DNA of 64,000 bases from an uncultured Desulfobacteraceae bacterium (lineage in GTDB: Bacteria; Desulfobacterota; Desulfobacteria; Desulfobacterales; UBA5852): assembly GCA_913060875.1 (NCBI GenBank), contig CAJXSL010000001.1, forward strand, positions 1,012,464 through 1,076,463. The letters run 5' to 3'. Below, in pieces: positions 1,737-60,616 of this stretch. The number at the start of each line of letters is the position of its first letter. Position 1 is the stretch's first letter. Position numbers and translations under genes: made by a program. The notes under the pieces are model-generated. The model saw nothing but the letters and a program-made list of their open reading frames with translations. It was not told where the DNA came from and made no database searches.

Positions 1737-2587
1737 TCCGATCCCTGCCCAACAGTCGCCGCTACCTTTACAGCTATAAGCTCTACATGGGGCTCTACTT
1801 CACCTTCCTTTTCGCGCCCCTAGTGGTGACCTGCGTCCTGGCATTCAACGACTCCCAGTTTCCGGCCCTGCCCTGGAAGGGGTTTACCCTGGAATGGTTC
1901 ACTGCAGACCTGCCCCACCGGGTGGGCATCTTCCACGACCGCATGAACCTGGAGAGCATTTGGGTCAGCGCCCAGGTGGCTTTTTTTGTGACCATTCTTT
2001 CCGTCACGGTGGGGACCTGCGCGGCTTTTCTCTTCGAGCAGGAGGAATTCCCCTTCAAACCGGCACTCTATTTCCTCATGCTGTCCCCCCTGGTCATCCC
2101 GGGGGTAATCCTGGGGATTTCCATCCTGCTTTTCTCCAACACCCTGGGGCTGTATTGCGAAACCCGCTGGGGTCTGGATGTGCCCCTGTTCCGCCCCGGG
2201 TTCTGGCTGGTGGTGCTGGGGCAGTTTTCCTTCATCGCCACCCTGGTGACCCTGGTGGTCTCCGCCCGGCTGCGCAAGTTCGACCGCACCCTGGAGGAGG
2301 CGGCGCTGAACCTGGGCGCCAACCGCTTCGAAGCCATCTGGCACATCACCCTGAAGTTCCTGCGGCCGGCCATCGTCGGGGCGGCGGCCGTGGCGTTCCT
2401 GATGTCCTTCGAGAACTTCAACACGACCCTTTTTCTGACCGGCTCGGAAACAACCCTGCCCATCAATCTTTACCTCCAGGTGCGCGACGGCAGCACGCCC
2501 GTCATCAACGCCATCTCCTTCCTGCTGATCGTGGGGACGTCACTGGCCGCGGTGGCCAATTTGTATTTCAGCCGCAAGCAGGAATGA
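1733..2587 (+). CDS. potC: PotC-like ABC transporter permease
   Basis: This is the second permease of the importer, of the PotC/PotI type. The start is the ATG at 1733, inside the ATGA overlap with the preceding gene. A longer open frame upstream is only a shadow of potB. It has about six membrane segments and an EAA loop (EEAALNLGANRFEAIW, near residue 188). It is the last gene of the visible operon. No potD-type binding protein follows, and the next 550 bases hold repeats instead. Confidence 0.88.
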   Translation: MIRSLPNSRRYLYSYKLYMGLYFTFLFAPLVVTCVLAFNDSQFPALPWKGFTLEWFTADLPHRVGIFHDRMNLESIWVSAQVAFFVTILSVTVGTCAAFLFEQEEFPFKPALYFLMLSPLVIPGVILGISILLFSNTLGLYCETRWGLDVPLFRPGFWLVVLGQFSFIATLVTLVVSARLRKFDRTLEEAALNLGANRFEAIWHITLKFLRPAIVGAAAVAFLMSFENFNTTLFLTGSETTLPINLYLQVRDGSTPVINAISFLLIVGTSLAAVANLYFSRKQE

Positions 2588-2755
2588 CGGTTTTGTCAAA
2601 CGCCCAATTTCGTCTTTGACCTAAATTCCTATATCTGTCGCCCAATACAGGAAAAGTTTGTATTTTCGGCAACTGTTCTTACTTTCCCCAGCGTTCATTT
2701 TCTTCCACATGGAAGAAAAGATGGAACCGTAAAAAATACCATTTCCCGCTTGAAC

Positions 2756-2825
2756 GTCATTCCGGCGAAAGCCGGAATCTATTGATAACAGAAGGTTAGA
2801 GATTCCGGATCAAGTCCGGAATGAC
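2756..2825. repeat. REP-like palindromic repeat, copy 1
   Basis: Outer inverted arms GTCATTCCGG/CCGGAATGAC enclose a smaller inverted repeat (TTCCGGCGAAAGCCGGAA). The same left half recurs at 25065-25139. This resembles the 'GTCATTCC..GCGAAAGC..GGAAT' class of dispersed bacterial palindromes. It lies just after the transporter operon and could act as an mRNA 3' hairpin. Confidence 0.7.
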
Positions 2826-2852
2826 AGATAAAATACTTTTTACGAGACCGTC

Positions 2853-2960
2853 AAGAAAACGAACCAATCACGCCTTTGCTGGTAACGGCGTGACAGGCTT
2901 CAGACGCCTGTGTCCCGCAGCCCCTAAGGGGCTTCCCTGCGCGTCGTCGGTGCGGGACAA
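2853..2960. repeat. dispersed repeat, copy 1 (partner at 27964-28156)
   Basis: The segment shares the blocks AAGAAAACGAA, AATCACGCCTTT, GGCGTGACAGGCTTCA, TGCGCGTCGTCGGTG and GCGGGACAA, in the same order, with 27964-28156. The second copy carries an extra ~60 bp. The interval around it (2588-3238) shows no convincing gene. Confidence 0.55.
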
Positions 2961-3238
2961 AGTGAAAAAACATCGGCTTAACTGCGTTTTTAAGTGTCCT
3001 CCGCTAAGACATGAGCTTAGCTCATACCGTTGTTCTATGGAGCGAATTTCAAATCCGTTTTGCTATTGTGAATGATATCTGTTACCGAAACCCCCACCGT
3101 GGTTTCCCAGAAAAGTGCACTTGTATCAGGGCAGGGGGATGATTAAGATGAAGTCTGAATCGGTCCGTGGCGGTTTGATCGGGCCATGTATATCAATCGG
3201 ATAAGCGCGCGCCTAAGGCGCGGGAAAGCGGGGATGCC

Positions 3239-3373
3239 ATGGCGGATAAATCCAGCAAAAATGCCTGCAGCATCAAATGCGATACGGACTACAAAGACTG
3301 TATGCGCAGCCGGGAGCACGAATCGGTCTGTCGCATGAAATCTGCCCAGTGTCGCTGCGGCTGCAGTGCCTGA
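3239..3373 (+). CDS. Small cysteine-rich protein, 44 aa
   Basis: This short frame runs ATG GCG GAT ... TGC CTGA and encodes 44 residues with seven cysteines at 10, 14, 21, 31, 38, 40 and 42 (spacing 3, 6, 9, 6, 1, 1), rich in Lys, Arg and Asp. A GGGAAAGCGGGG stretch lies just upstream as a plausible ribosome site. The density of cysteine and the ending CRCGCSA suggest a metal- or cluster-binding or disulfide-rich peptide. No family is recognised. It could still be chance coding. Confidence 0.45.
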   Translation: MADKSSKNACSIKCDTDYKDCMRSREHESVCRMKSAQCRCGCSA

Positions 3374-3390
3374 CAACGAATAAGACGATC

Positions 3391-3607
3391 AGCTATCTCA
3401 AAAAAGTTTTTTCGCCCGATATCCGCGTTGTGCCCTCGTCTCAAGTCCTCGACATACTACAGTATGTACCCCAAGGGCACTTCCTTCGGGGCGCCTATGC
3501 GGGTTGCACCCACCGCTGAAGAATCGAGCAGATGGGAAGTCCCGCTTTACGGGAATTCTCGGCCACGCCGTATCTCGAACGAAAACCCTAATTTTGAGAT
3601 GGCTTCC
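3391..3607. mobile_element. MITE-like element family 2, copy A
   Basis: It begins AGCTATCTCAAAA and ends TTTTGAGATGGCT, which are near-perfect terminal inverted repeats. The interior blocks (CCTCGTCTCAAGTCCTCGAC, AGTATGTACCCCAAGGG, TTCTCGGCCACGCC) recur at 58848-59019, and its right half recurs inverted at 55510-55587. This copy has a ~45 bp internal segment lacking in the 58848 copy but partly shared with the 55510 copy. It contains no open frame of its own. Confidence 0.75.
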
Positions 3608-5013: not shown

Positions 5014-6807
5014 TTAATCCACCGGGTACATGCTGTTGATGGTGTCTTCGTACTGTGTCGCCACCACGTTTTTCTTGACCTTGAGGGTGGGGGTGATCAG
5101 GCCGTTGGCGATGGTGAATTCCGGCACGACGGTCACCTTTTTAACGCTCTCGAAACTGGCAAACTGGCCGTTTTTGGCGGCCACTTCGTCTTCGATCAGC
5201 TTCTGGACCTGTTCGTTGGTGGTCAGTTCGTCAACGCTCTTGAAGGCAATACCCTGCTCCCCGGCCCAGGCCGTGATGTTTTCCTCGTCCAGGGTGATGA
5301 GGGCCGAAAGGAATTTACGCCGGTCCCCGATGACAAAGACCTGGTTGATGTATTTGGAGGTGGCGATGACACCCTCGATGGCGGCCGGGGCGATGTTTTT
5401 GCCGCCGGCCGTAATGATCAGCTCTTTCTTGCGGCCGGTGATGCGGAGAAATTCCTCGTTGTCGATTTCGCCGATGTCGCCCGTCAGCAGCCAGCCGTCT
5501 TCGGTGATGTTGGCCGCCGTCTCTTCGGGCATCTTGTAGTATTCCTTCATGACGTTGCGCCCCCGGATCATTACTTCGCCGTCATCGCCGGTTTTCTGTT
5601 CGATGCCGGGTCCGGGCTGACCCACCCAGCCAAAGCGGTAGTTGTCGTAGCGGTTGAGGTGGCTGAAGGAGGTGTCCTCGGTCATGCCGATGCCTTCGAC
5701 GATGAGAACGCCGGCGGCATGGAAAAATTTGCCGATGTCCGGGTTGAGGGGCGCGGCCCCGCTGATGCACCAGCGCACCCGGCCCCCGAGGGCGGCCTGG
5801 ACCTTTGAAAACACCAGCTTGTTGGCCAGGGCGTATTTCAGCCCCAGGGCGAAGGGTACCGGTTTTTTGGCCAGCTTGAGGTCGCCGACCTGTTCCCCCA
5901 CGGCCCGGGCCCATTGGAAAATCTTGAGGGCGGCGCCGCCTTTGGCTTCCGCGCCGCTGATGACTTTGGAGTAAACTTTTTCGTAGATGCGCGGGACGCT
6001 GGCGAACCAGTGCGGGCGCGTGGCCTGCATGTCCTCCACCACGGTTTCCATGCTGCGGGTGAACGTTGTCGGGCAGCCCACCAGCAGGGTTGCGTAGGCG
6101 CAGGTGCGGGCAAAGACATGGGCCAGGGGCAGGAAAAGGAAGACCTCGTCGCCGTCCTTTATGGTCGTGCTGCCCTTGACCGACTGGGCCGTGAAAGTGA
6201 TGTTGTCGTGGGTCAGGACGGCGCCCTTGGGAACGCCGGTCGTCCCGGATGTGTAGACGATGCCGGCCGCATCCTGGGGGGTCATGGACCGGGCCCGCTC
6301 GTCTAAATCCTTGTCCGACACATCCTTGCCCAGGGCCATAAAATCCTCAAAACTGATGGCCCAATCGTCGTCCGGCGCCTCGCCATTAAAAAGGACCACC
6401 TTGCGCACGTCAGGAATCTGGGCACGGATTTCCATAACCTTGTCGAGCTGCACGTTGTCCTGAACGAAGACCACCACTGCGTCCGAGTGGTCGATGATGT
6501 ACTGGCAGTCCTTGGGAAGGTTCGACTGGTAGATGCCCACCGTGGCGGCTCCGGCGCTGTTGATGCCCATGTCGGCCAGAATCCATTGGTAGCAGGAATA
6601 GCTGATGATGTTGACTTTGTCGCCCTTCTCCACGCCGAGGGCCATGAGGCTTTTACCCACCTGGCGGACCTGGTCGTAGAATTCTCCCCAGGTAACGGAT
6701 TCGGTCTGACCGGGGGCTGTGAACCAGCGGTAGGCGGCTTGATCCCGGTGGCGGTCGACAGTGGCCAGCAGCATGGCGTGCGTGTTCTGAAAATCCACAA
6801 ATTGCAT
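5014..6807 (-). CDS. Long-chain acyl-CoA synthetase (AMP-forming)
   Basis: The enzyme activates fatty acids to acyl-AMP and then acyl-CoA at the expense of ATP. Seen are the P-loop-like AMP-binding motif YTSGTTGVPKGA, the FLPLAHVFAR segment, the WLLTGDIGE adenylate motif and GRKKELIITAGGKNI near the hinge. The ATG at 6807 (MQFVDFQ) is chosen because GGGGAGGAG stands just before it; the frame is open 54 codons further upstream without such support. The 597-residue length is typical of FadD15/FAA-type synthetases. It would feed beta-oxidation or lipid synthesis, along with the acyl-CoA dehydrogenase at 9118. Confidence 0.9.
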   Translation of the reverse strand: MQFVDFQNTHAMLLATVDRHRDQAAYRWFTAPGQTESVTWGEFYDQVRQVGKSLMALGVEKGDKVNIISYSCYQWILADMGINSAGAATVGIYQSNLPKDCQYIIDHSDAVVVFVQDNVQLDKVMEIRAQIPDVRKVVLFNGEAPDDDWAISFEDFMALGKDVSDKDLDERARSMTPQDAAGIVYTSGTTGVPKGAVLTHDNITFTAQSVKGSTTIKDGDEVFLFLPLAHVFARTCAYATLLVGCPTTFTRSMETVVEDMQATRPHWFASVPRIYEKVYSKVISGAEAKGGAALKIFQWARAVGEQVGDLKLAKKPVPFALGLKYALANKLVFSKVQAALGGRVRWCISGAAPLNPDIGKFFHAAGVLIVEGIGMTEDTSFSHLNRYDNYRFGWVGQPGPGIEQKTGDDGEVMIRGRNVMKEYYKMPEETAANITEDGWLLTGDIGEIDNEEFLRITGRKKELIITAGGKNIAPAAIEGVIATSKYINQVFVIGDRRKFLSALITLDEENITAWAGEQGIAFKSVDELTTNEQVQKLIEDEVAAKNGQFASFESVKKVTVVPEFTIANGLITPTLKVKKNVVATQYEDTINSMYPVD

Positions 6808-20455: not shown

Positions 20456-20505
20456 TCCAGAAGCGTTGCCAAATATAGAATGTTCCATTCAACTGATTTA
20501 CGCCT

Positions 20506-20651
20506 TATCTTGATTTTTAGGCTATTTTATAATACCTGAACCATCAGGCATTCAAAAATATTCCCTCCCAAGCCGGCATAGAATTAAAAAATCAAAAAAT
20601 AGCATTAGGTCATCGGACCCTATGGCGTTGTGCATTGTTGCGTTCAGTGCA
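20506..20651. repeat. Dispersed repeat R3, copy a
   Basis: Conserved blocks ATCTTGATTTTT, ATAATACCTGA, TTCAGGCATT, CCCAAGCCGGCATAGAATTA and TTGTGCATTGTTG recur in order at 45530-45676 and, in shorter form, at 24613-24690. In two places it follows the small membrane-peptide reading frame. 20652-20778 shows no gene. Confidence 0.6.
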
Positions 20652-45459: not shown

Positions 45460-45529
45460 TGGTTGAAAAGCCATGCATCCAAGAACCCACCGGCTGCGAT
45501 ACCATCCAAAATCAACTCATTTGGGCAAT

Positions 45530-45676
45530 CTCTTGATTTTTTAACCATTCTATAATACCTGATTGTTCAGGCATTTCAGACACATCCCTCCCCAAGCCGG
45601 CATAGAATTAAAAAAATCAAAAATAGCACCGGGCCATTAAGCCTTCGATGTTGTGCATTGTTGTGTGCAGTGCAAT
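45530..45676. repeat. Dispersed repeat R3, copy c
   Basis: TCTTGATTTTTTAACCATTC, ATAATACCTGA, TTCAGGCATTTC, CCCAAGCCGGCATAGAATTA and TTGTGCATTGTTG as in the copy at 20506. 45677-45928 shows no gene. Confidence 0.65.
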
Positions 45677-45928: not shown

Positions 45929-46255
45929 ATGGCGGAATTTCAGTCTACAATCACTTCATTTCTCCCTGTTATCGACGGCCCTTCTATTTCCCAATTGCAA
46001 TTCCAAAAATTTTTTAATCCAGCCTTAAAGCAAAATATGCCTAAGAATATTCAGGAAGCCCTCGCCCTGAAGTCTGCCCAAGTTGAAAACTACATAGAAT
46101 ATGCCAATGCCACTCGACCTTTAGGTTTTACTGGTGAGGAAACGAAAAGATACCCGATGCAAAAATATGGAAACCGCTCGACGCTAACGTTTTTGTACGC
46201 GTTGTCAACAACGTCCCTTAAATGCCCCCGTTGCGGTATCGGTTGGATGGGGTGA
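45929..46255 (+). CDS. Hypothetical protein, 3' end formed by a repeat
   Basis: The frame starts MAEFQSTITSFLPVIDG after GGAG and runs ~73 residues as a plausible helical protein (FQKFFNPALKQNMPKNIQEALALKSAQ). From about residue 75 the coding sequence is the family 3 repeat, which gives a tail RYPMQKYGNRSTLTFLYALSTTS. It is therefore probably truncated. No family is recognised. Confidence 0.35.
   Translation: MAEFQSTITSFLPVIDGPSISQLQFQKFFNPALKQNMPKNIQEALALKSAQVENYIEYANATRPLGFTGEETKRYPMQKYGNRSTLTFLYALSTTSLKCPRCGIGWMG
46149..46224. mobile_element. MITE-like family 3, right-hand part
   Basis: GATACCCGATGC, AAAAATATGGAAACCGCTCG and TTGTCAACAACGTCCC match the right ~75 bp of the element at 60488-60606. 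The left terminal repeat is missing here. Confidence 0.65.
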
Positions 46256-46268
46256 GAGTTTTAGTGCA

Positions 46269-46344
46269 CAAATAAAATGAAGGAATCTGATGGGAAATTT
46301 CGTCACTGCCCAAATAAAATGAAGGAATCTGATGGGAAATTTCG
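46269..46344 (+). repeat. Direct tandem duplication, 42-bp period
   Basis: A 34-base string beginning CAAATAAAATGAAGG and ending GGGAAATTTCG occurs twice, at 46269-46302 and 46311-46344, identical by eye. It lies immediately before the DUF262-HNH gene and contains possible start codons followed by stops. Confidence 0.8.
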
Positions 46345-46386: not shown

Positions 46387-47931
46387 ATGGTCAAAGTTAA
46401 TTTAGATGCTTTAATTCAACGAGAAGATTTTGAAGTGATAGAGGGATCAGCAACGTCTCAATTTGGTGCAACATTGCAGATTAGGGATTTAGAGAAAAAT
46501 TCATTTTTTTTCCCGGTAATAAGAAAACCAGACTTCCAAAGAGAAACAGCAGATTGGAGCCCAGAAAGAATAGTTGATTTTATAAAAAGCTTTATAGACG
46601 GAGACTTGATTCCTGCAATTATTTTGTGGCAGGCAGGTTCAAACATTTTTGTTATTGACGGTGCTCATCGGCTAAGCGCACTAATAGCATGGGTTCATGA
46701 TGATTATGGAGATGGGAAAATATCAAAATTGTTTTTTGATTTGAAGATTTCTGATGAGCAGTTAACAACGGCGGAAAAAACAAGAGTATTAGTAAAAAAA
46801 GTGATTGGTACTTATAGAGATATTCAACATGCGATTCAGTATCCTGATAAATCTGAAAGAATGCATGTCGAAAGAGCTAAGAGGTTAAGCTATTTGGCTC
46901 TTCAATTGCAGTGGGTGCAGGGAAATGCAGAAAAAGCAGAAGAATCATTTTTCAAAATTAATCAGCATGCTGCACCAATAGATAAAACTGAATTGCGAAT
47001 TCTTAAAGCAAGAAAAAAACCAAATGCAATATCGGCTAGGGCAATTTTACGATCTGGTAAAGGGCATAAATATTGGTCAAAATTTGACGATGAAACAAGA
47101 GAGTATATTGAAGAATTAGCGACTGAAATTGACGATCTTCTTTTCATTCCACGGTTAAGGACTCCAATTAAAACATTAGATTTACCAATAGCTGGAAAAG
47201 GCTATTCCTCAAATGCACTTCCTCTTCTTTTGGATTTTATAAATATTGTTAACGATGTTAGCTCTGGGTCAAGACTCAAAGAAGATAAAAATGGCAAAGA
47301 AACAGTCTCTTTTTTGCAGAAAACAAAAACTATTTTAAACCTAATGACGGGTACAAGTCCTTCTTCTTTAGGTATACACCCAATTGTATTTTTTTATAGC
47401 GCTGCGGGAAGATACCAGCCAACAGCTTTTTTGGCAATGGTCTTCTTTTTAAAAGAACTGGTCGACAGAAATGATATGAAAAATTTTATTAAAATTAGAA
47501 AAAATTTTGAAGATCATTTTTTAATATATAAATCAATACCTAATCAGATGAATGTTAAGCTTGGAAGCGGGATGAAAGGCGGCTCAAAAAGACTTGCTGA
47601 ATATTATAGCTTTATTTTTAATAGCCTCTCTTCCGGTGAAAAAATAGAAAGCCTGCCTGCAATTTCGAAAAGGAACGCAAAATTTTCATTTATAAATTTT
47701 GACCCACAGTTTCTTTTAACAGAAAGAGATTCGTTTTCAGAAAAAGTTAAATCGGCAGCATTTATCAAAGAAGCTCTTGAAAATCCAATTAGATGCAAAA
47801 TTTGCAATGGAATGATTCATACAAAATCAATATCAATAGACCATATCAATAGAAAAAGGAGTGGCGGTAAAGGAATTTTAGAGAATGCACAACTTACACA
47901 TCCATTCTGTAATAGTACGATAAAAAACTAA
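46387..47931 (+). CDS. DUF262 (ParB-like)-HNH endonuclease-like protein
   Basis: The 514-residue protein starts with a DUF262/ParB-type domain. Visible are FPVIRKPDFQRETADWSPERIVDFIKSFIDGDLIPAIILW and IDGAHRLSALIAWVHDDYGDG, where the DGxHR-type motif is the nucleotide-binding or hydrolysing site. It ends with an HNH-type zinc region (CKICNG...SIDHINRKRSGGKG...LTHPFCN, ~470-512). The combination recalls GmrSD-type modification-dependent restriction and other defence nucleases. AT-rich codon use, unlike the ars genes, suggests recent transfer. It is the first gene of a same-strand block. Confidence 0.75.
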   Translation: MVKVNLDALIQREDFEVIEGSATSQFGATLQIRDLEKNSFFFPVIRKPDFQRETADWSPERIVDFIKSFIDGDLIPAIILWQAGSNIFVIDGAHRLSALIAWVHDDYGDGKISKLFFDLKISDEQLTTAEKTRVLVKKVIGTYRDIQHAIQYPDKSERMHVERAKRLSYLALQLQWVQGNAEKAEESFFKINQHAAPIDKTELRILKARKKPNAISARAILRSGKGHKYWSKFDDETREYIEELATEIDDLLFIPRLRTPIKTLDLPIAGKGYSSNALPLLLDFINIVNDVSSGSRLKEDKNGKETVSFLQKTKTILNLMTGTSPSSLGIHPIVFFYSAAGRYQPTAFLAMVFFLKELVDRNDMKNFIKIRKNFEDHFLIYKSIPNQMNVKLGSGMKGGSKRLAEYYSFIFNSLSSGEKIESLPAISKRNAKFSFINFDPQFLLTERDSFSEKVKSAAFIKEALENPIRCKICNGMIHTKSISIDHINRKRSGGKGILENAQLTHPFCNSTIKN

Positions 47932-48057
47932 AGGAATTTTAAACTTATCCGTTCGCATTCTCAATATCGACAAATGCTACTTTATTTCGATCAAACCCGA
48001 TTATTCTGAAAAACAGAATTCAACATAATAATTAAGATAGGTTCTAAAGGAAAAACA

Positions 48058-49047
48058 ATGGTGGCGACAACTGAATCAACAAATCCTGATGCATATGGGC
48101 GTCTTGATGTTACAGTTCGCGAAGCGTCTTTCGAAGCGGGCAAAATATCGCCTGTAACAATTATCCTGCGGAATCCATTCGATGTACCAGTCGAAGTTAT
48201 TGAAATTCAAGGGCCTCGTTCATATCACCTGCACGAAATAGACAAGGCAAGAACGCCATCTCTAACTGGAGTAGACAGTGATCAGTTTCAAGGTTCGTCA
48301 CCTGCACCTAAAGAAAGCTTTGTACGAAGGTTACTCAGAGATATAGGTAAAATTCAGGTTGCGGAAATAAGTATGGGACCAATTACCGCCCACTTGCCAA
48401 CAGCTGAGAGATCATTCAACATTAAAGCTGATCCACAATCTGAAATTGTTATTGACAGAGATGTTTCCACCTATGAGTCAGTGAACGTCAAGGCATCAGA
48501 GGGTGCAAAAGTACATTTCACTAGATATGAGGTGGAAGAAGATTCACCTCATCTATATTCGGAACAGCCTGATAATAAGAAAACATTCATTATTGAGCCT
48601 CATTGTGAGACTGTTGCTTATTTTGAAATATCAACTACTGGGTGGTTGTTTTTCACACCCTCTCGACAGTCACTTAGCACACTGGTGAAGTACCGTATTG
48701 GCGGACGTGAAAAAACACAGGTAACAACTTCCGAATTTGAGGTTAAGCCACCTTTAGCGGCCATGGTGATAGGTGCAATTATTGGCGCAGTTTTGGGCAG
48801 TTTGGCGAAGGTTTTGAACTCCAGTGGTTCTCTAGAATGGCAACCAGTTTTAGTCGCTGTTGGTGGCTCGGTCGTAATGAGCCTAATTGCCGCAATAGCT
48901 TTGTCGAGAAAAACTGGAACTCAAGGATTTATTACAGTAGAGGACTTTTTTGGCGGCTTTGTCATTGGAGCATTGATCGGATACGGTGGGTCTGAGTATT
49001 TCGAAAAAACCATCGTGTCCCCTGATATCCCCAAAGTTTCTGGGTAA
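48058..49047 (+). CDS. Membrane protein with beta-rich N-terminal domain
   Basis: The 329-residue protein has a ~235-residue beta-rich part (GRLDVTVREASFEAGKISPVTIILRNPFDVPVEVIEI resembles an immunoglobulin-like sandwich) with no signal peptide. Three hydrophobic segments follow near the C-terminus (about 240-260, 268-285, 298-312). The large domain is probably cytoplasmic. AAAGGAA precedes the ATG. No family is recognised. It lies 126 bases after the DUF262-HNH gene. Confidence 0.6.
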   Translation: MVATTESTNPDAYGRLDVTVREASFEAGKISPVTIILRNPFDVPVEVIEIQGPRSYHLHEIDKARTPSLTGVDSDQFQGSSPAPKESFVRRLLRDIGKIQVAEISMGPITAHLPTAERSFNIKADPQSEIVIDRDVSTYESVNVKASEGAKVHFTRYEVEEDSPHLYSEQPDNKKTFIIEPHCETVAYFEISTTGWLFFTPSRQSLSTLVKYRIGGREKTQVTTSEFEVKPPLAAMVIGAIIGAVLGSLAKVLNSSGSLEWQPVLVAVGGSVVMSLIAAIALSRKTGTQGFITVEDFFGGFVIGALIGYGGSEYFEKTIVSPDIPKVSG

Positions 49048-49153
49048 TCTGAACCTAAACACGGCATTGAGAGCGACGACAAAAGCGCCGCGCCTCAAGC
49101 AGACCCACCGGTTTCAATAAATAGTATATTTGAGTATTGAAACGGAATAAATC

Positions 49154-49684
49154 ATGAAGAATAAATATGATAAAAAATCGCGTCAAATGAGGATGGACCC
49201 TATTCTATCTGGCCTTCTAATTTTTGGATCTATTGTTGTTGCAGCTGTTTTTGCTGTTGTTTCATCTGACAGGCCTTTGACGAACCTTGAAGCTGTTCTC
49301 CTACAATCATTCGGTTTAGGCGCTGGTCTTATCGGGTCATTCATTTTTGGGAGGCAATCCACCCAAAAAGCTGCTGTTGAGTTGGTTAAACCTCATGCTC
49401 GTTCTGCATTTCGTCGTTTATGGTCACTTTATCAAAGTCTTTCAAGACTTGCTGAGGTGGTCCAATCGGCACAAAGGGCACGTTTTGATAATGAAAACAG
49501 CGAAAAACAAATTAGCAACAATGAATGCATTGCAGTTATTGAGGCCATAATTTCTGAACAATTATCAACTGCTGATGATGCGTTAGAAGATTGGAGAGAC
49601 CTAATACCTGAAGATATTGAGGTCCTTGAACAAAGAATGAACACTCGGCAAAATAATAAAAATAGGATGAAAGGTAATGAATAA
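49154..49684 (+). CDS. Small membrane protein with coiled C-terminal part
   Basis: The 176-residue protein has two hydrophobic helices (about 17-37 and 47-65) followed by a charged helical region (AFRRLWSLYQSLSRLAEVVQSAQRARFDNENSEK...DWRDLIPEDIEVLEQRM), probably coiled and cytoplasmic. The next gene starts within its last codons (8-base overlap), so the two are coupled. No family is recognised. Confidence 0.6.
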   Translation: MKNKYDKKSRQMRMDPILSGLLIFGSIVVAAVFAVVSSDRPLTNLEAVLLQSFGLGAGLIGSFIFGRQSTQKAAVELVKPHARSAFRRLWSLYQSLSRLAEVVQSAQRARFDNENSEKQISNNECIAVIEAIISEQLSTADDALEDWRDLIPEDIEVLEQRMNTRQNNKNRMKGNE

Positions 49685-50123
49685 TAACGACGGATTAATT
49701 CGTGGTAAGGTTGCTCGGATTTTATCATCCAGGCAATTAGTAATTAACGTTGGTTCAGAAAATGGGGTTGTGAACGGAATGAAATTTGACGTTCTTGACC
49801 CTAAAGGCGATGATATAAAAGATCCTGATTCTGGGGAAATTTTAGGTTCAGTAAATAGGCCGAAAGTTAGGGTTGAAATAATAGAGGTTCAAGAGAGACT
49901 TTCAGTCGCACAAACGTATAAAAAAAGAACTGTAAATGTTGGTGGTACAGCCGGATATTTTGGCCATACAATTTCAGATATGCTTAAACCACCCAAATAT
50001 ATCGAGCGATATGAAACTTTAAAGACAACTGAAAAAACCTGGGAAGACATTGATGAAAGCGAGAGCTATGTAAAGACAGGTGATCCAGTTGTTCAAGTTT
50101 CAGTCAGTAAAGCTGAACGGTAA
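49677..50123 (+). CDS. FlgT C-terminal-like beta-domain protein
   Basis: The 148-residue soluble protein is dominated by strands: GKVARILSSRQLVINVGSENGVVNGMKFDVLD, DPDSGEILGSVNRPKVRVEIIEVQERLSVAQTY. The order VxxV..INxGS.xGV..GxxFxV..DPxTGExLG is that of the FlgT C-terminal domain found in several envelope proteins, here without a signal peptide. It is translationally coupled to the preceding membrane protein. The function is unknown. Confidence 0.55.
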   Translation: MNNNDGLIRGKVARILSSRQLVINVGSENGVVNGMKFDVLDPKGDDIKDPDSGEILGSVNRPKVRVEIIEVQERLSVAQTYKKRTVNVGGTAGYFGHTISDMLKPPKYIERYETLKTTEKTWEDIDESESYVKTGDPVVQVSVSKAER

Positions 50124-50258
50124 AAATAGAAAGACATATAGAAACCTAAGAATAATCGCATCTTAATTATTATCTATCCGGACGATCAAGGATTTTGAAA
50201 ATAAAAGTAGGTTGGGCATGCAACTGAGATGAAACCCTAATGAAGAGGAGAATTGAAT

Positions 50259-50555
50259 ATGGAACAACCGTTGATTGAAATTGTTCCAGCGCAACCTGGA
50301 TTTTTTACTGTATATGAATTCGAAAAAAATAAAGAATTTGAAGTGGGAGAACCAGTTATAGCTTGGAGAATTAAAACAGTAATAAGAGATTACAGTTCTG
50401 AGGCATTCTCTTCATGCTTTCCTATTACTGCAGACGGTGATGCTGCAGACAACTGTGTTGGTGTACAGAATCCAGATATGACAGTCACGATTTTTGATCA
50501 TACTACGTATGGATCAATAAAAGAAGCTCAGGAGGATAAATACTCAAAAACGTAA
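50259..50555 (+). CDS. Small hypothetical protein of the AT-rich block
   Basis: ATG 50259 follows GAGGAG by 8 bases. The ~98-residue product has a strand-rich pattern (IVPAQPGFFTVYEFEKNKEFEVGEPVIAWRIKT) and an acidic tail. No family is recognised. It is the last gene of the same-strand AT-rich block. 50556-50713 carries a GGGGTCAAACAAGGGGTCAA direct repeat and the promoter of the next small gene. Confidence 0.55.
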   Translation: MEQPLIEIVPAQPGFFTVYEFEKNKEFEVGEPVIAWRIKTVIRDYSSEAFSSCFPITADGDAADNCVGVQNPDMTVTIFDHTTYGSIKEAQEDKYSKT

Positions 50556-50713
50556 GAGAATCTTGATAGGGCCATATCTTAACTCTTAACTGTTAGTATA
50601 AGGGGTCAAACAAGGGGTCAAGTCTACATTTGACCGTAGCTTATCTATCAACAGCGAATAGGTGGGCTATGTTATTATACTTTTCTATCTTTTTGTGAAA
50701 GTGGGCTCTAACT

Positions 50714-51042: not shown

Positions 51043-54000
51043 CTATGTTTCGGGCAATTGCGCCAGTTCCTCTCTGACCCCGTCGGGTGCCAGCAGAGTT
51101 CCCAGGCGTTCAAAGATTTTCAGAGCGCGGTTCAGATAATCACGGGCCGCAGCAACGTCTCCCTTATTCCCATAGCAACGGCCTAAACCCGCATAGGCCA
51201 GGGCCAGGAGATTCTCCGCCTTGATTTCGCTAAAAATGGCGATGGCTTTTTCAAAGCAAGTGTCTGCGGATGGCTTCTTTTCCTGGGCCGGGTCAGCTTC
51301 CAGCGAAATTGAGCCCAATAAAAGGTGGTGACATGCGGCATTATATTTCATTCCCCTTTTTTCGGCGAGTTTTAAAACCTCTTCAAGCTCTTCTTGAGCT
51401 TTATCAAACTGATGGTTCAGCCGATAGCCATCAGCGAGCAAAGTACCAAAAGTTACCGAAAAAGCATGCGCACCCGTCATTCGAAACCCCGTAACACCTT
51501 CGACAAGATAGTCGAGGCCCTTTTCCGGCTCACCTGAGTGACATAATGCCCAACCCAGAGCAGATCGAGCCCATAGATATTCAAGAGGACTGGATGCTTT
51601 TGCGACAGCCAGTTGGGCCAGTTCAACCGCCCGCGCCATGTCGCCTTTCATGACATAAGCGAAACTTATTTCCATGGCGGAGAAGGATGAAAGGCTCAGG
51701 TCAGAATGCGCATCGGCGGCTTTAAGCGCATGCTCTCCCTCCTTGACCGCGGCATTCCAATGGCCCATATAGGCATAGGCTTGTGAAACCGTACAGAATG
51801 ACATTACGTAGGGTCGCAAGGAAAAGGCTTTTTGATGTGCTTGAATGACCTTTTCTCTTAGCGCCAGCACCGCTTCAAAGTTTCCTTTCCATAGCTGGGC
51901 CCACTGACAGACCATATAGGCGTACCCTGCGTAAAATTCATTGCCGCAGGCCTCGCACAAACGGATTGCCTCCCCGGCGGTTTCAAGGGATTCGTCAATG
52001 CGTCCAAATTGCCATTCGCAGAGCCCTTTTCGGGCATAAAAGCCGCCCAGAAGGCCGGGATTGTCCAGATCGACGGCCACGGGCTCGTATTTCAGCAGCA
52101 GGGCATAATAATCTGGAAATTTGTCCAGCAGCTGAAAGGCAAGGGCATTTTCGACCAGCATGGATATACGCAGCCGCCGGTGTTGGGGGGTATCCGGCAG
52201 GGTGTCCAACAGCCCCATGGCCGTCTCGAAATACCCCATAGCATCCACAAGTGCATATAGTTTTATGGCTTTGCGGTTGGCCAGAACGAGGTATTCAATG
52301 GCTTTTTCCTTATCGTCGCTGCGGCCGTAGTGGTAGGTCAGCATTTCGTAGAACTCTTCCAGGTTGCCGGCATAAAGCTCTTCGATGGCCTGGCCGATTT
52401 GCTGGTGAATCTCTTTGCGTCGGGCAGAAAGCAGGCTGTTGTAGGCGACCTCCTGGACCAGGGCGTGCTTGAAAATGTACTCCAGCTCGGGAAACAGGCT
52501 TTTTTCATAGATGAATTCCAGGCCCTGGAGGTTCAAAAGCTGATGTTTCAGGTCTTCACGCATGCCGCTGATGGCCTGCAGCAATCGGAACGCAAATTCC
52601 CTGCCGATCACGGCGGCCACCTGCATGATCCGCTTCAGGCTCTCTTCCAGGCGGTCGATGCGCGCGGCAATGATCCCCTGAACCGTGTCGGGCACCTTAA
52701 GGTCCGTAGAAGCCCGGCGGAGAACATAGCGTTGGTCTTTGATTTCGATGGTGCCGTTTTCCAAAAGCGAATGGGTCAGCTCCTCCATGAAGAGCGGGTT
52801 GCCGGCGGCCCGGTTCAAGATGAGCTCACTTAGCTCCGGGGCCGTCTCGCTGCCTTCGAGAATGGACTTGACCAGCTCGGCGCTGGATTTGAGGGTAAGC
52901 TGGTTCACCCCGATGCGGTTAAAATAGGATTTGCCGCCCCACTGGTGGGTGTACTCCGGCCGGTAGAGCAAAATCAGCATGACCCTGGCGGTGGCCAGCC
53001 AGCCGATGAAATAGTCCAAAAACGCCTCGCTGGTCTTGTCGACCCAGTGAAGGTCATCAACCGCCAGAATCAGAGGCCGCTGTTGGCTGCCCCGGACGAT
53101 CAGGTTGCGCAGGGCTTCAAAAAGCTTTTCCCTTTTGACCCGCGGATCGAGCCTGAGGTAGGTTTCATCCGTCACCTTGAGTGATAAAAGATCGAAAATC
53201 GGCGGCAGGACGCCTTGAAGCTTTTCGTCAAGGGCCATTATCTTTTCGCTGACCTGCTTTCTGATGGCAGGTTCGCTGCCACCCTCCGTGATCTCAAAAA
53301 AGGAATTTAAAATGTCAAGGATGGGCAGATAGGGAATGGCGCTGCCAAAGTGAATGCAGCGGCCTTCGAGATACCCGAATTCGCCCCTTGGAAGTCGCTT
53401 CATGAACTCCAACAGCAACCGCGATTTGCCCACGCCGGCCTCGCCGACCACGCCCACCACCTGGCCGGTGCCGGATTTAACTTTCTCGTAGGCCTCCATG
53501 AAAGCCGCCATGGAGTTTTTGCGGCCCACGAATCGGGTAAGGCCCTTGGCTGCGGCGGCCTCGATGCGGGTGGCCGCGCCGCCGGCACCTAAAAGCTCAA
53601 AAACCTCCTGGGGTTCTTCTTTGCCTTTCACCGGCAGCTGGCCCAGCGCTTTTAGATCGAAATAGTCTTTGACCAGCCGCTGGGTATTGCGGGAGATCAG
53701 CACCGTTCCGGGGTGCGCCAGGCTTTCCATGCGCGCGGCCAGGTTGGTGGTGTCTCCCACGGCCGTGTAATCCATGCGCAGGTCGTCGCCGATGGCCCCC
53801 ACGATCACCGGCCCGGAGTTGAGACCCAGGCGCATCTTAAACGCGATCCCGTAATCACGGCTTACCTTTTCGCCAAAGCGCCTTACAGCCTGCTGGATGG
53901 CAAGGGCCGCGTGGCAGGCCCTCTGGGCATGGTCCTCGTGGGCCAGGGGGGCGCCGAAGAGCGCCATCACCCCGTCGCCGGTAAACTGGTTGATCGTGCC

Positions 54001-54396
54001 CTCATGCTTGTGGATCTCGTCCATCAGGATCTTGAAACAGCCGTCCATGATTTCATGGATCTGCTCCGGGTCGAGTTTTTCGGCAAGTCGGGTGAAGCCG
54101 GCCACGTCGGCAAACAGAACGCTCACCAGCTTGCGCTCGCCCTCGATCGCAGATCGCATGGTAAGGATTTTCTCTGCCAGGTGCCTTGGGGTGTAGGTCT
54201 GGGGTTGCTCATAGCTAACCGATTTAAGATCTTTTGATTTCCGCAAGTCATGACCGCATTCACTGCAGAATTTACTGCCAACCGGGTTCATTTTTCTGCA
54301 TTCCGGGCATTCAAGCTCTAACTTGTTGCCGCATTCGCTGCAGAACTTGGCATTCTCCAAATTATCAAATTGGCATTTCGGGCATTTCATAAGCAT
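51043..54396 (-). CDS. Class III adenylate cyclase-AAA ATPase-TPR protein with zinc ribbons
   Basis: The 1117-residue cytoplasmic protein starts with two zinc ribbons (CPKCQFDN...CSECG; CPECRKMN...CSECG). A class III nucleotide cyclase domain follows (~85-265; VLFADVAGFTRL and TGDGVMALFG hold the metal-binding Asp residues), then an ATPase with Walker A VGEAGVGKSRLLLEF and Walker B-like LAVDDLHWVD, and a long TPR-like C-terminal half. This layout is known in many soil and marine bacteria; it probably makes cAMP under control of the ATPase. It stands alone on the minus strand. Confidence 0.87.
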   Translation of the reverse strand: MLMKCPKCQFDNLENAKFCSECGNKLELECPECRKMNPVGSKFCSECGHDLRKSKDLKSVSYEQPQTYTPRHLAEKILTMRSAIEGERKLVSVLFADVAGFTRLAEKLDPEQIHEIMDGCFKILMDEIHKHEGTINQFTGDGVMALFGAPLAHEDHAQRACHAALAIQQAVRRFGEKVSRDYGIAFKMRLGLNSGPVIVGAIGDDLRMDYTAVGDTTNLAARMESLAHPGTVLISRNTQRLVKDYFDLKALGQLPVKGKEEPQEVFELLGAGGAATRIEAAAAKGLTRFVGRKNSMAAFMEAYEKVKSGTGQVVGVVGEAGVGKSRLLLEFMKRLPRGEFGYLEGRCIHFGSAIPYLPILDILNSFFEITEGGSEPAIRKQVSEKIMALDEKLQGVLPPIFDLLSLKVTDETYLRLDPRVKREKLFEALRNLIVRGSQQRPLILAVDDLHWVDKTSEAFLDYFIGWLATARVMLILLYRPEYTHQWGGKSYFNRIGVNQLTLKSSAELVKSILEGSETAPELSELILNRAAGNPLFMEELTHSLLENGTIEIKDQRYVLRRASTDLKVPDTVQGIIAARIDRLEESLKRIMQVAAVIGREFAFRLLQAISGMREDLKHQLLNLQGLEFIYEKSLFPELEYIFKHALVQEVAYNSLLSARRKEIHQQIGQAIEELYAGNLEEFYEMLTYHYGRSDDKEKAIEYLVLANRKAIKLYALVDAMGYFETAMGLLDTLPDTPQHRRLRISMLVENALAFQLLDKFPDYYALLLKYEPVAVDLDNPGLLGGFYARKGLCEWQFGRIDESLETAGEAIRLCEACGNEFYAGYAYMVCQWAQLWKGNFEAVLALREKVIQAHQKAFSLRPYVMSFCTVSQAYAYMGHWNAAVKEGEHALKAADAHSDLSLSSFSAMEISFAYVMKGDMARAVELAQLAVAKASSPLEYLWARSALGWALCHSGEPEKGLDYLVEGVTGFRMTGAHAFSVTFGTLLADGYRLNHQFDKAQEELEEVLKLAEKRGMKYNAACHHLLLGSISLEADPAQEKKPSADTCFEKAIAIFSEIKAENLLALAYAGLGRCYGNKGDVAAARDYLNRALKIFERLGTLLAPDGVREELAQLPET

Positions 54397-60487: not shown

Positions 60488-60606
60488 GGGGACGTTGTTG
60501 GCAAGCTACACCAACTTGTCCTTCGGAGAATCTGACAGATTCCCGATGCAAAAATATGGAAACCGCTCGACGAATATGTTTTTGTGCGTGTTGTCAACAA
60601 CGTCCC
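60488..60606. mobile_element. MITE-like family 3, full copy
   Basis: A 119-bp element with 16-base ends GGGACGTTGTTGGCAA and TTGTCAACAACGTCCC, inverted with one mismatch. The right ~70 bp recur at 46149-46224. It stands between two broken genes. Confidence 0.7.
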
Positions 60607-60616
60607 TTAAATGGCA

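Follow-up and report, generated by a model that had tools for sequence, protein, structure and literature searches.

A recurrent two-gene cassette of a two-helix membrane protein and an FlgT_C-like barrel, separate from a neighbouring DUF262-HNH nuclease, in an AT-rich patch of a Desulfobacteraceae genome

The window that we have analysed is a 64,000-nucleotide stretch of DNA from an uncultured Desulfobacteraceae bacterium (contig CAJXSL010000001.1, positions 1,012,464 to 1,076,463), and our interest is in a block of five open reading frames (ORFs) within it, all on the + strand, that encode proteins of 514, 329, 176, 148 and 100 amino acids (aa). In order, these are a DUF262-HNH nuclease (46387..47931), a membrane orphan (48058..49047), a protein with two transmembrane (2TM) helices (49154..49684), a cytosolic β-barrel protein of the FlgT_C/MreC type (49677..50123) and a small orphan (50259..50555). 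A first-pass annotation of this DNA had described the five as same-strand, AT-rich and bordered by mobile-repeat debris, all of which we find as well, and had proposed that they form one defence module led by the nuclease, which we do not. The GC fraction is 0.32-0.43 across 45.5-51 kb as compared to about 0.50-0.64 in the flanks. Gaps of 126, 106 and 129 nt separate genes 1 and 2, 2 and 3, and 4 and 5, respectively, and gene 3 runs 8 nt into gene 4, so that only these two resemble a single transcriptional/translational unit. As described below, the combination of a 2TM protein with an FlgT_C-like barrel is a conserved unit that recurs in unrelated mobile elements and in chromosomes, from bacteria to archaea, and is independent of DUF262.

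In the first protein of this cassette a transmembrane (TM) scan places N-terminal helices at residues 14-40 and 47-66, followed by a predicted helical cytosolic tail. The second gene has an AAAGGT just 5' of its ATG, which together with the overlap makes translational coupling of the two genes likely, as had been suggested previously. SLATT domains are effector domains with two transmembrane helices. The 176-aa protein has no Pfam match at E-values up to 1, and a plasmid search with it returned no match. Neither Pfam nor PADLOC offers a usable model for the pair, and nothing relevant on FlgT_C, PF16538, phrog_27728 or FlgT in antiphage defence emerged from the open-access papers searched. We have thus found neither a name nor a description for the pair; an earlier description may exist outside open-access papers and in newer defence catalogues.

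The 148-aa protein belongs to the phage family PHROG 27728, matching phrog_27728 over residues 9-132 with E 4e-10; the entry lists no function and gives no information on partners. The match to FlgT_C (E 7e-4, 20.4 bits) lies under the curated cut-off of 27, and the same domain is matched weakly by 13 of 16 barrel homologues, with the barrel profile also matching the FlgT_C-type domain of TsaP. An AlphaFold (AF2) model has a well-defined core, with predicted local confidence (pLDDT) of about 81-94 for most positions from 10 to 80 and a strand that returns at 137-140; the loops are poorly modelled. Its top structural matches are to FlgT (8z5n and 3w1e, Z about 11); next come MreC in a Foldseek search and the N-terminal barrels of F1/V1-ATPases in a second structural comparison. 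The resemblance to FlgT, TsaP and MreC is thus one of fold and of weak sequence similarity. Those, however, are large envelope proteins that are exported or anchored, FlgT having N-terminal and middle domains in addition, whereas the barrel proteins considered here are stand-alone, 103-172 aa in length, without TM segments and coupled to a 2TM gene; in the window's copy, 148 aa in total, the TM scan detects neither a TM nor a hydrophobic segment.

In addition to plasmids, phages and viral contigs, our sampling took in about 330 genomes from one more phylum. Full or partial homologues of the 148-aa protein are present on plasmids of Glutamicibacter, Candidatus (Ca.) Megaera, Haladaptatus, Latilactobacillus and Psychrobacter, in phages P7.1, phi575, DatBoi and OneUp, in the satellite phage Javan321 and in viral contigs. 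The pair itself is carried by small plasmids (actinobacterial, rickettsial and Psychrobacter; pair-bearing plasmids measure 6.6, 7.2 and 11.5 kb), by a haloarchaeal plasmid and by temperate phages, where it sits in the lysogeny region with the repressor on one side and the integrase on the other. On the longer contigs of the retest described below the cassettes are flanked by ordinary genes such as ilvA, bioA, recQ and apbE, and the pair is therefore a unit in its own right. None of 12 whole records that carry barrel genes, mostly as pairs, contains a DUF262 domain, and in the sample of the window's own phylum the stand-alone barrel is nearly absent, almost all matches being domains of larger proteins.

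In the discovery set a TM protein lies directly upstream of 12 of the 19 stand-alone barrel genes, mostly overlapping or within 11 nt, as compared with a rough background, among the remaining ORFs of these loci, of about 15% (P about 2e-6). Because these cases had themselves generated the idea of a pairing we have retested it on new genomes, searching phrog_27728 against 329 genomes from the phylum of Rhizobium. All five of the stand-alone barrel genes recovered have a 2TM partner with a predicted β domain immediately upstream, at spacings of +4 to -4 nt; two of the hits are near copies, leaving four independent cases.

The membrane partners are of several kinds. A helical tail follows the two helices in the window, in Glutamicibacter (locus L026) and in L054, the latter two matching the window's protein in architecture, length and gene overlap, with weak sequence similarity. 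A second and commoner kind, from Megaera, Psychrobacter and loci L053, L056, L057, L068 and L090-L094, combines two TM helices with a β domain, the helices and a β-like pattern being predicted from sequence in the numbered loci. Partners with a TM segment and a coiled coil occur in P7.1, L058 and L060, and two other kinds are found in Haladaptatus and Latilactobacillus. Similarities among the 2TM+β partners, with E-values down to 3e-13, connect Alphaproteobacteria, Gammaproteobacteria and a Bacillota-like gut phage and indicate that these partners are one homologous family. In a tree of the barrel proteins the 2TM+β kind forms a single clade (support 93/89; recovered in 94% of bootstraps). The partner labels require 7 changes as opposed to a mean of 12.3 after shuffling, a value as low as 7 never having been obtained in 200 shuffles. 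Partner type thus tracks the barrel tree, establishing co-inheritance of the membrane gene with the barrel gene. On the haloarchaeal plasmid (L028:2989-8243) the 2TM partner is a 334-aa protein whose tail resembles a second barrel, and a gene for a large PD-(D/E)XK and AAA_11 protein follows.

What might such a pair do? The reading that best fits the data, we infer, is that the cassette is a membrane-acting defence, exclusion or toxin-antitoxin unit, with the membrane protein under the control of the barrel. The 2TM protein would reside in the inner membrane, and the barrel protein would bind its cytosolic domain and either hold the 2TM protein inactive or gate its activity. Infection or superinfection would alter the interaction, and the 2TM protein so released would alter or permeabilise the membrane, such that the invader is blocked or the cell killed. 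Panoptes offers a parallel for such restraint of a toxic 2TM effector through its partner gene, in that c-di-AMP made by mCpol blocks the oligomerisation of a toxic 2TM-β protein (PMC12657230). The cassette shares with Panoptes 2TM-β and with CBASS Cap15 the two TM helices and, in the commoner partner type, a predicted cytosolic β domain, all within a two-gene unit, but it differs in that the conserved neighbour is an FlgT_C-like barrel rather than a nucleotide cyclase and, in the case of the window, in that the tail of the 2TM protein is helical.

For the locus as a whole, the explanation that we favour, with a confidence that stops just short of even, is one of separate cargo that includes a conserved 2TM-barrel cassette with a restrained membrane effector, the nuclease acting independently. 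That the cassette is moreover a previously undescribed two-gene immunity or exclusion device of bacteria and archaea, we put forward as a tentative proposal. In this view the FlgT_C-like barrel would control 2TM proteins that have exchanged their cytosolic domain (helical, β, coiled-coil) on several occasions, and temperate phages, small plasmids and chromosomes would all be carriers of the device. Were the cassette a defence or exclusion unit it would be a compact two-gene system, present in a wide range of hosts and missed by the tested PADLOC library, and this would be the first role for phrog_27728; it may serve to protect its host cells or else the mobile elements on which it travels. At about 1 kb it is small, and hence readily testable.

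Several observations weigh against the proposed membrane effector and its restraint by the barrel. The location on mobile elements is also accounted for by plasmid maintenance, exclusion or neutral cargo, and searches of PDB sequences and of Pfam with the 2TM+β partners have not revealed a match to Cap15 or to any other effector of known structure, although Cap15 may be a distant relative. In the discovery set six barrel genes have no assigned TM partner, and the partner in L060 is below the TM threshold. Mutual similarity among the helical-tail partners of the window, L026 and L054 is weak (best E 0.02-0.07 in a 13-sequence set), so that their kinship is argued from architecture and position. 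Immune-type neighbours are few in number, and in the case of Abi_2 the gaps of ~100 nt that separate it from the barrel gene (L029, L033, L055 and L063) contain what read as promoter-like and hairpin/T-run sequences, so that Abi_2 may be an independent unit.

The strongest competitor has the pair serving as a device for superinfection or plasmid-entry exclusion, or for maintenance, with the 2TM protein altering the envelope or DNA entry without killing and the barrel acting as an assembly subunit. The location of the pair in temperate phages, with the repressor on one side and the integrase on the other, is what one would expect of such a device, as is the finding that the pair is nearly the sole cargo of small plasmids, but chromosomal copies lie beside ordinary genes too and no entry machinery is linked to the pair; we regard this possibility as unlikely, although it deserves serious consideration. 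A more mundane role is suggested by the nearest solved relatives of the barrel, since TsaP, FlgT and MreC are all envelope-assembly proteins, and the pair might correspondingly carry out an ordinary envelope function in ring or scaffold assembly, having been acquired by mobile elements by chance. The barrel has no hydrophobic segment for export, however, and its patchy distribution on mobile elements, its presence on an archaeal plasmid and the near absence of the stand-alone form from the window's own phylum sample all argue in the opposite direction, making an envelope role doubtful.

The neighbours of the pair provide a suggestive hint of an immune role. A CAP12/Pycsar-type TIR protein directly precedes the Glutamicibacter pair, and Abi_2 genes lie downstream of the barrel gene, at a distance of about 88-106 nt, in four unrelated mobile elements. 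One might suppose that what the barrel regulates is not the membrane protein but, in common, the immune effectors encoded nearby, such as TIR and Abi_2. Most pairs, however, have neither a TIR nor an Abi_2 effector, and the promoter- and hairpin-like sequences in the Abi_2 gap hint at separate expression of that gene, so that we consider this role for the barrel improbable. The gap possibly encodes a small RNA antitoxin, to judge from its sequence; there is no match to the Rfam abiF RNA in three gaps at E-values up to 1. The likeness to AbiF/AbiD systems is thus limited to an Abi_2 gene after the barrel gene in the four elements: no Abi_2 was detected in the proteins of the window's block and the barrel is not a recorded component of AbiF. 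Two further observations concern these loci. In L057 the 2TM-barrel pair is separated from a phage integrase by a reverse transcriptase gene (RVT_1; 2450-3553) on the opposite strand, which might belong to a retron, and the Streptococcus satellite phage Javan321 contains two skipping-rope RNAs (RF02924; L063:7933-8014 and 6419-6498).

The 514-aa nuclease is the protein that had drawn attention to the block. It matches GmrSD_N (PF03235) with E 4e-12 and 47 bits, above the cut-off of 33.2, and over its full length phrog_29172 (E 2e-137), while its C-terminus gives a weak HNH match (PF01844/HNH_5, E 5e-4) and none to DUF1524 (GmrD) at E-values up to 1. Invariant in 7 homologues are D91-G92-x-H94-R95 and the HNH residues C470, C473, H486, N500, H505, C508 and N509. 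GmrSD proper has a DGQQR motif, as defined in PMC4619093, together with a DUF1524 domain (PMC4619093; PMC10952713); with DGAHR in place of the motif and HNH in place of the domain the window's protein is a related stand-alone enzyme and not GmrSD. The similarity to the DUF262-DUF1524 type IV restriction enzymes GmrSD, BrxU and SspE lies in a DUF262 domain with a D-G-x-x-R motif and a C-terminal HNH-type nuclease in a single chain, but its HNH groups with PF01844 and the protein falls in a separate family, phrog_29172. None of the PADLOC DUF262 systems matches it at full length, the partial matches being short (NsnA, residues 45-107; PD-T4-2_A, residues 47-130). By analogy with its family, for which the first-pass annotation had noted modification-dependent restriction, it is plausibly a type IV-like restriction enzyme of this sort, and it would then cut modified foreign DNA independently of the cassette.

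What does not survive is the connection of the nuclease to the remainder of the block. Homologues with 39-51% identity are found in viral contigs and on plasmids of Microvirga, Enterobacter, Pantoea and Burkholderia. Many plasmids of Acinetobacter carry more distant homologues, and there is no common partner gene in the loci inspected. A profile search of 11 loci (10 with nuclease relatives and one from Rhizobium) recovered no relatives of the 176-aa and 148-aa proteins and only a single relative of the 329-aa protein, that of Rhizobium. The nuclease is thus a stand-alone phage and plasmid gene that is separate from the cassette. That all five genes, orphan included, nevertheless act together is favoured by their common strand and AT-rich patch but is contradicted, to the extent that we assign it next to no probability, by the stand-alone nuclease relatives, by the DUF262-free loci of the pair and by a 329-aa relative with no block gene adjacent to it. 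Each of the two findings that the first-pass annotation had named as fatal to its proposal has been made, in that relatives have the DUF262 gene alone and the membrane/FlgT_C-like pair has homologues in loci free of DUF262. Adjacency within an acquired patch is, therefore, not proof of a single module. On a plasmid of Burkholderia glumae (L011:3089-6590) a DUF262-HNH homologue adjoins, on the opposite strand, a CBASS-type operon with DncV-like cyclase, ThiF-like and Mov34/MPN genes.

Both membrane proteins had been grouped with the FlgT_C-like protein in the first-pass annotation; the two-helix protein belongs there, the 329-aa protein (48058..49047) does not, and we treat the latter as separate cargo. 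It has a predicted β-rich N-terminal part and three C-terminal hydrophobic TM helices, the AF2 model being of low confidence (pLDDT 36), and no family match is obtained in Pfam, PADLOC or PHROG. Its sole known relative, in Rhizobium calliandrae (L003:5992-6930), is ~38% identical, most strongly in the C-terminal membrane part where an SRKTG-Q-FITVEDFFG-F-IGALIGYGG motif is conserved. Its neighbours there are a cytochrome gene and an RND efflux operon, and no other gene of the block adjoins it. A link between this protein and the pair was considered and rejected, as we have found no other case of it. Nor do we assign to the cassette the 100-aa orphan (ATG at 50259, with a TTG start at 50253), for which a family search detects nothing.

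The AT-rich patch is best explained as an acquired region with separate cargo, comprising the nuclease, the orphan membrane protein, the two-gene cassette and one or two small orphans. No convincing RNA features were found in the block, and sigma-70-like promoters are not more frequent there than in shuffled sequences. In the right flank a gene at 51043-54396 encodes a 1117-aa protein with a zinc ribbon, adenylate/guanylate cyclase, AAA and TPR regions, of which several paralogues exist both in the genome itself and in related ones; since sibling genomes contain only paralogues that are ~28-38% identical, synteny is unusable for locating an empty site. The repeat debris includes two tandem 38-nt direct repeats at 46265..46344, directly ahead of the nuclease gene, as well as segments repeated elsewhere in the window, with 46148-46224 being 91% identical to 60537-60613 and 45512-45674 being 76% identical to 20489-20651. 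At 50614..50635 (+ strand) lies the 22-mer GGGGTCAAGTCTACATTTGACC, which on contig C6 is present as inverted pairs ~1.06 kb apart that bound two elements, so that the copy beside the block is a solo end of such an element.

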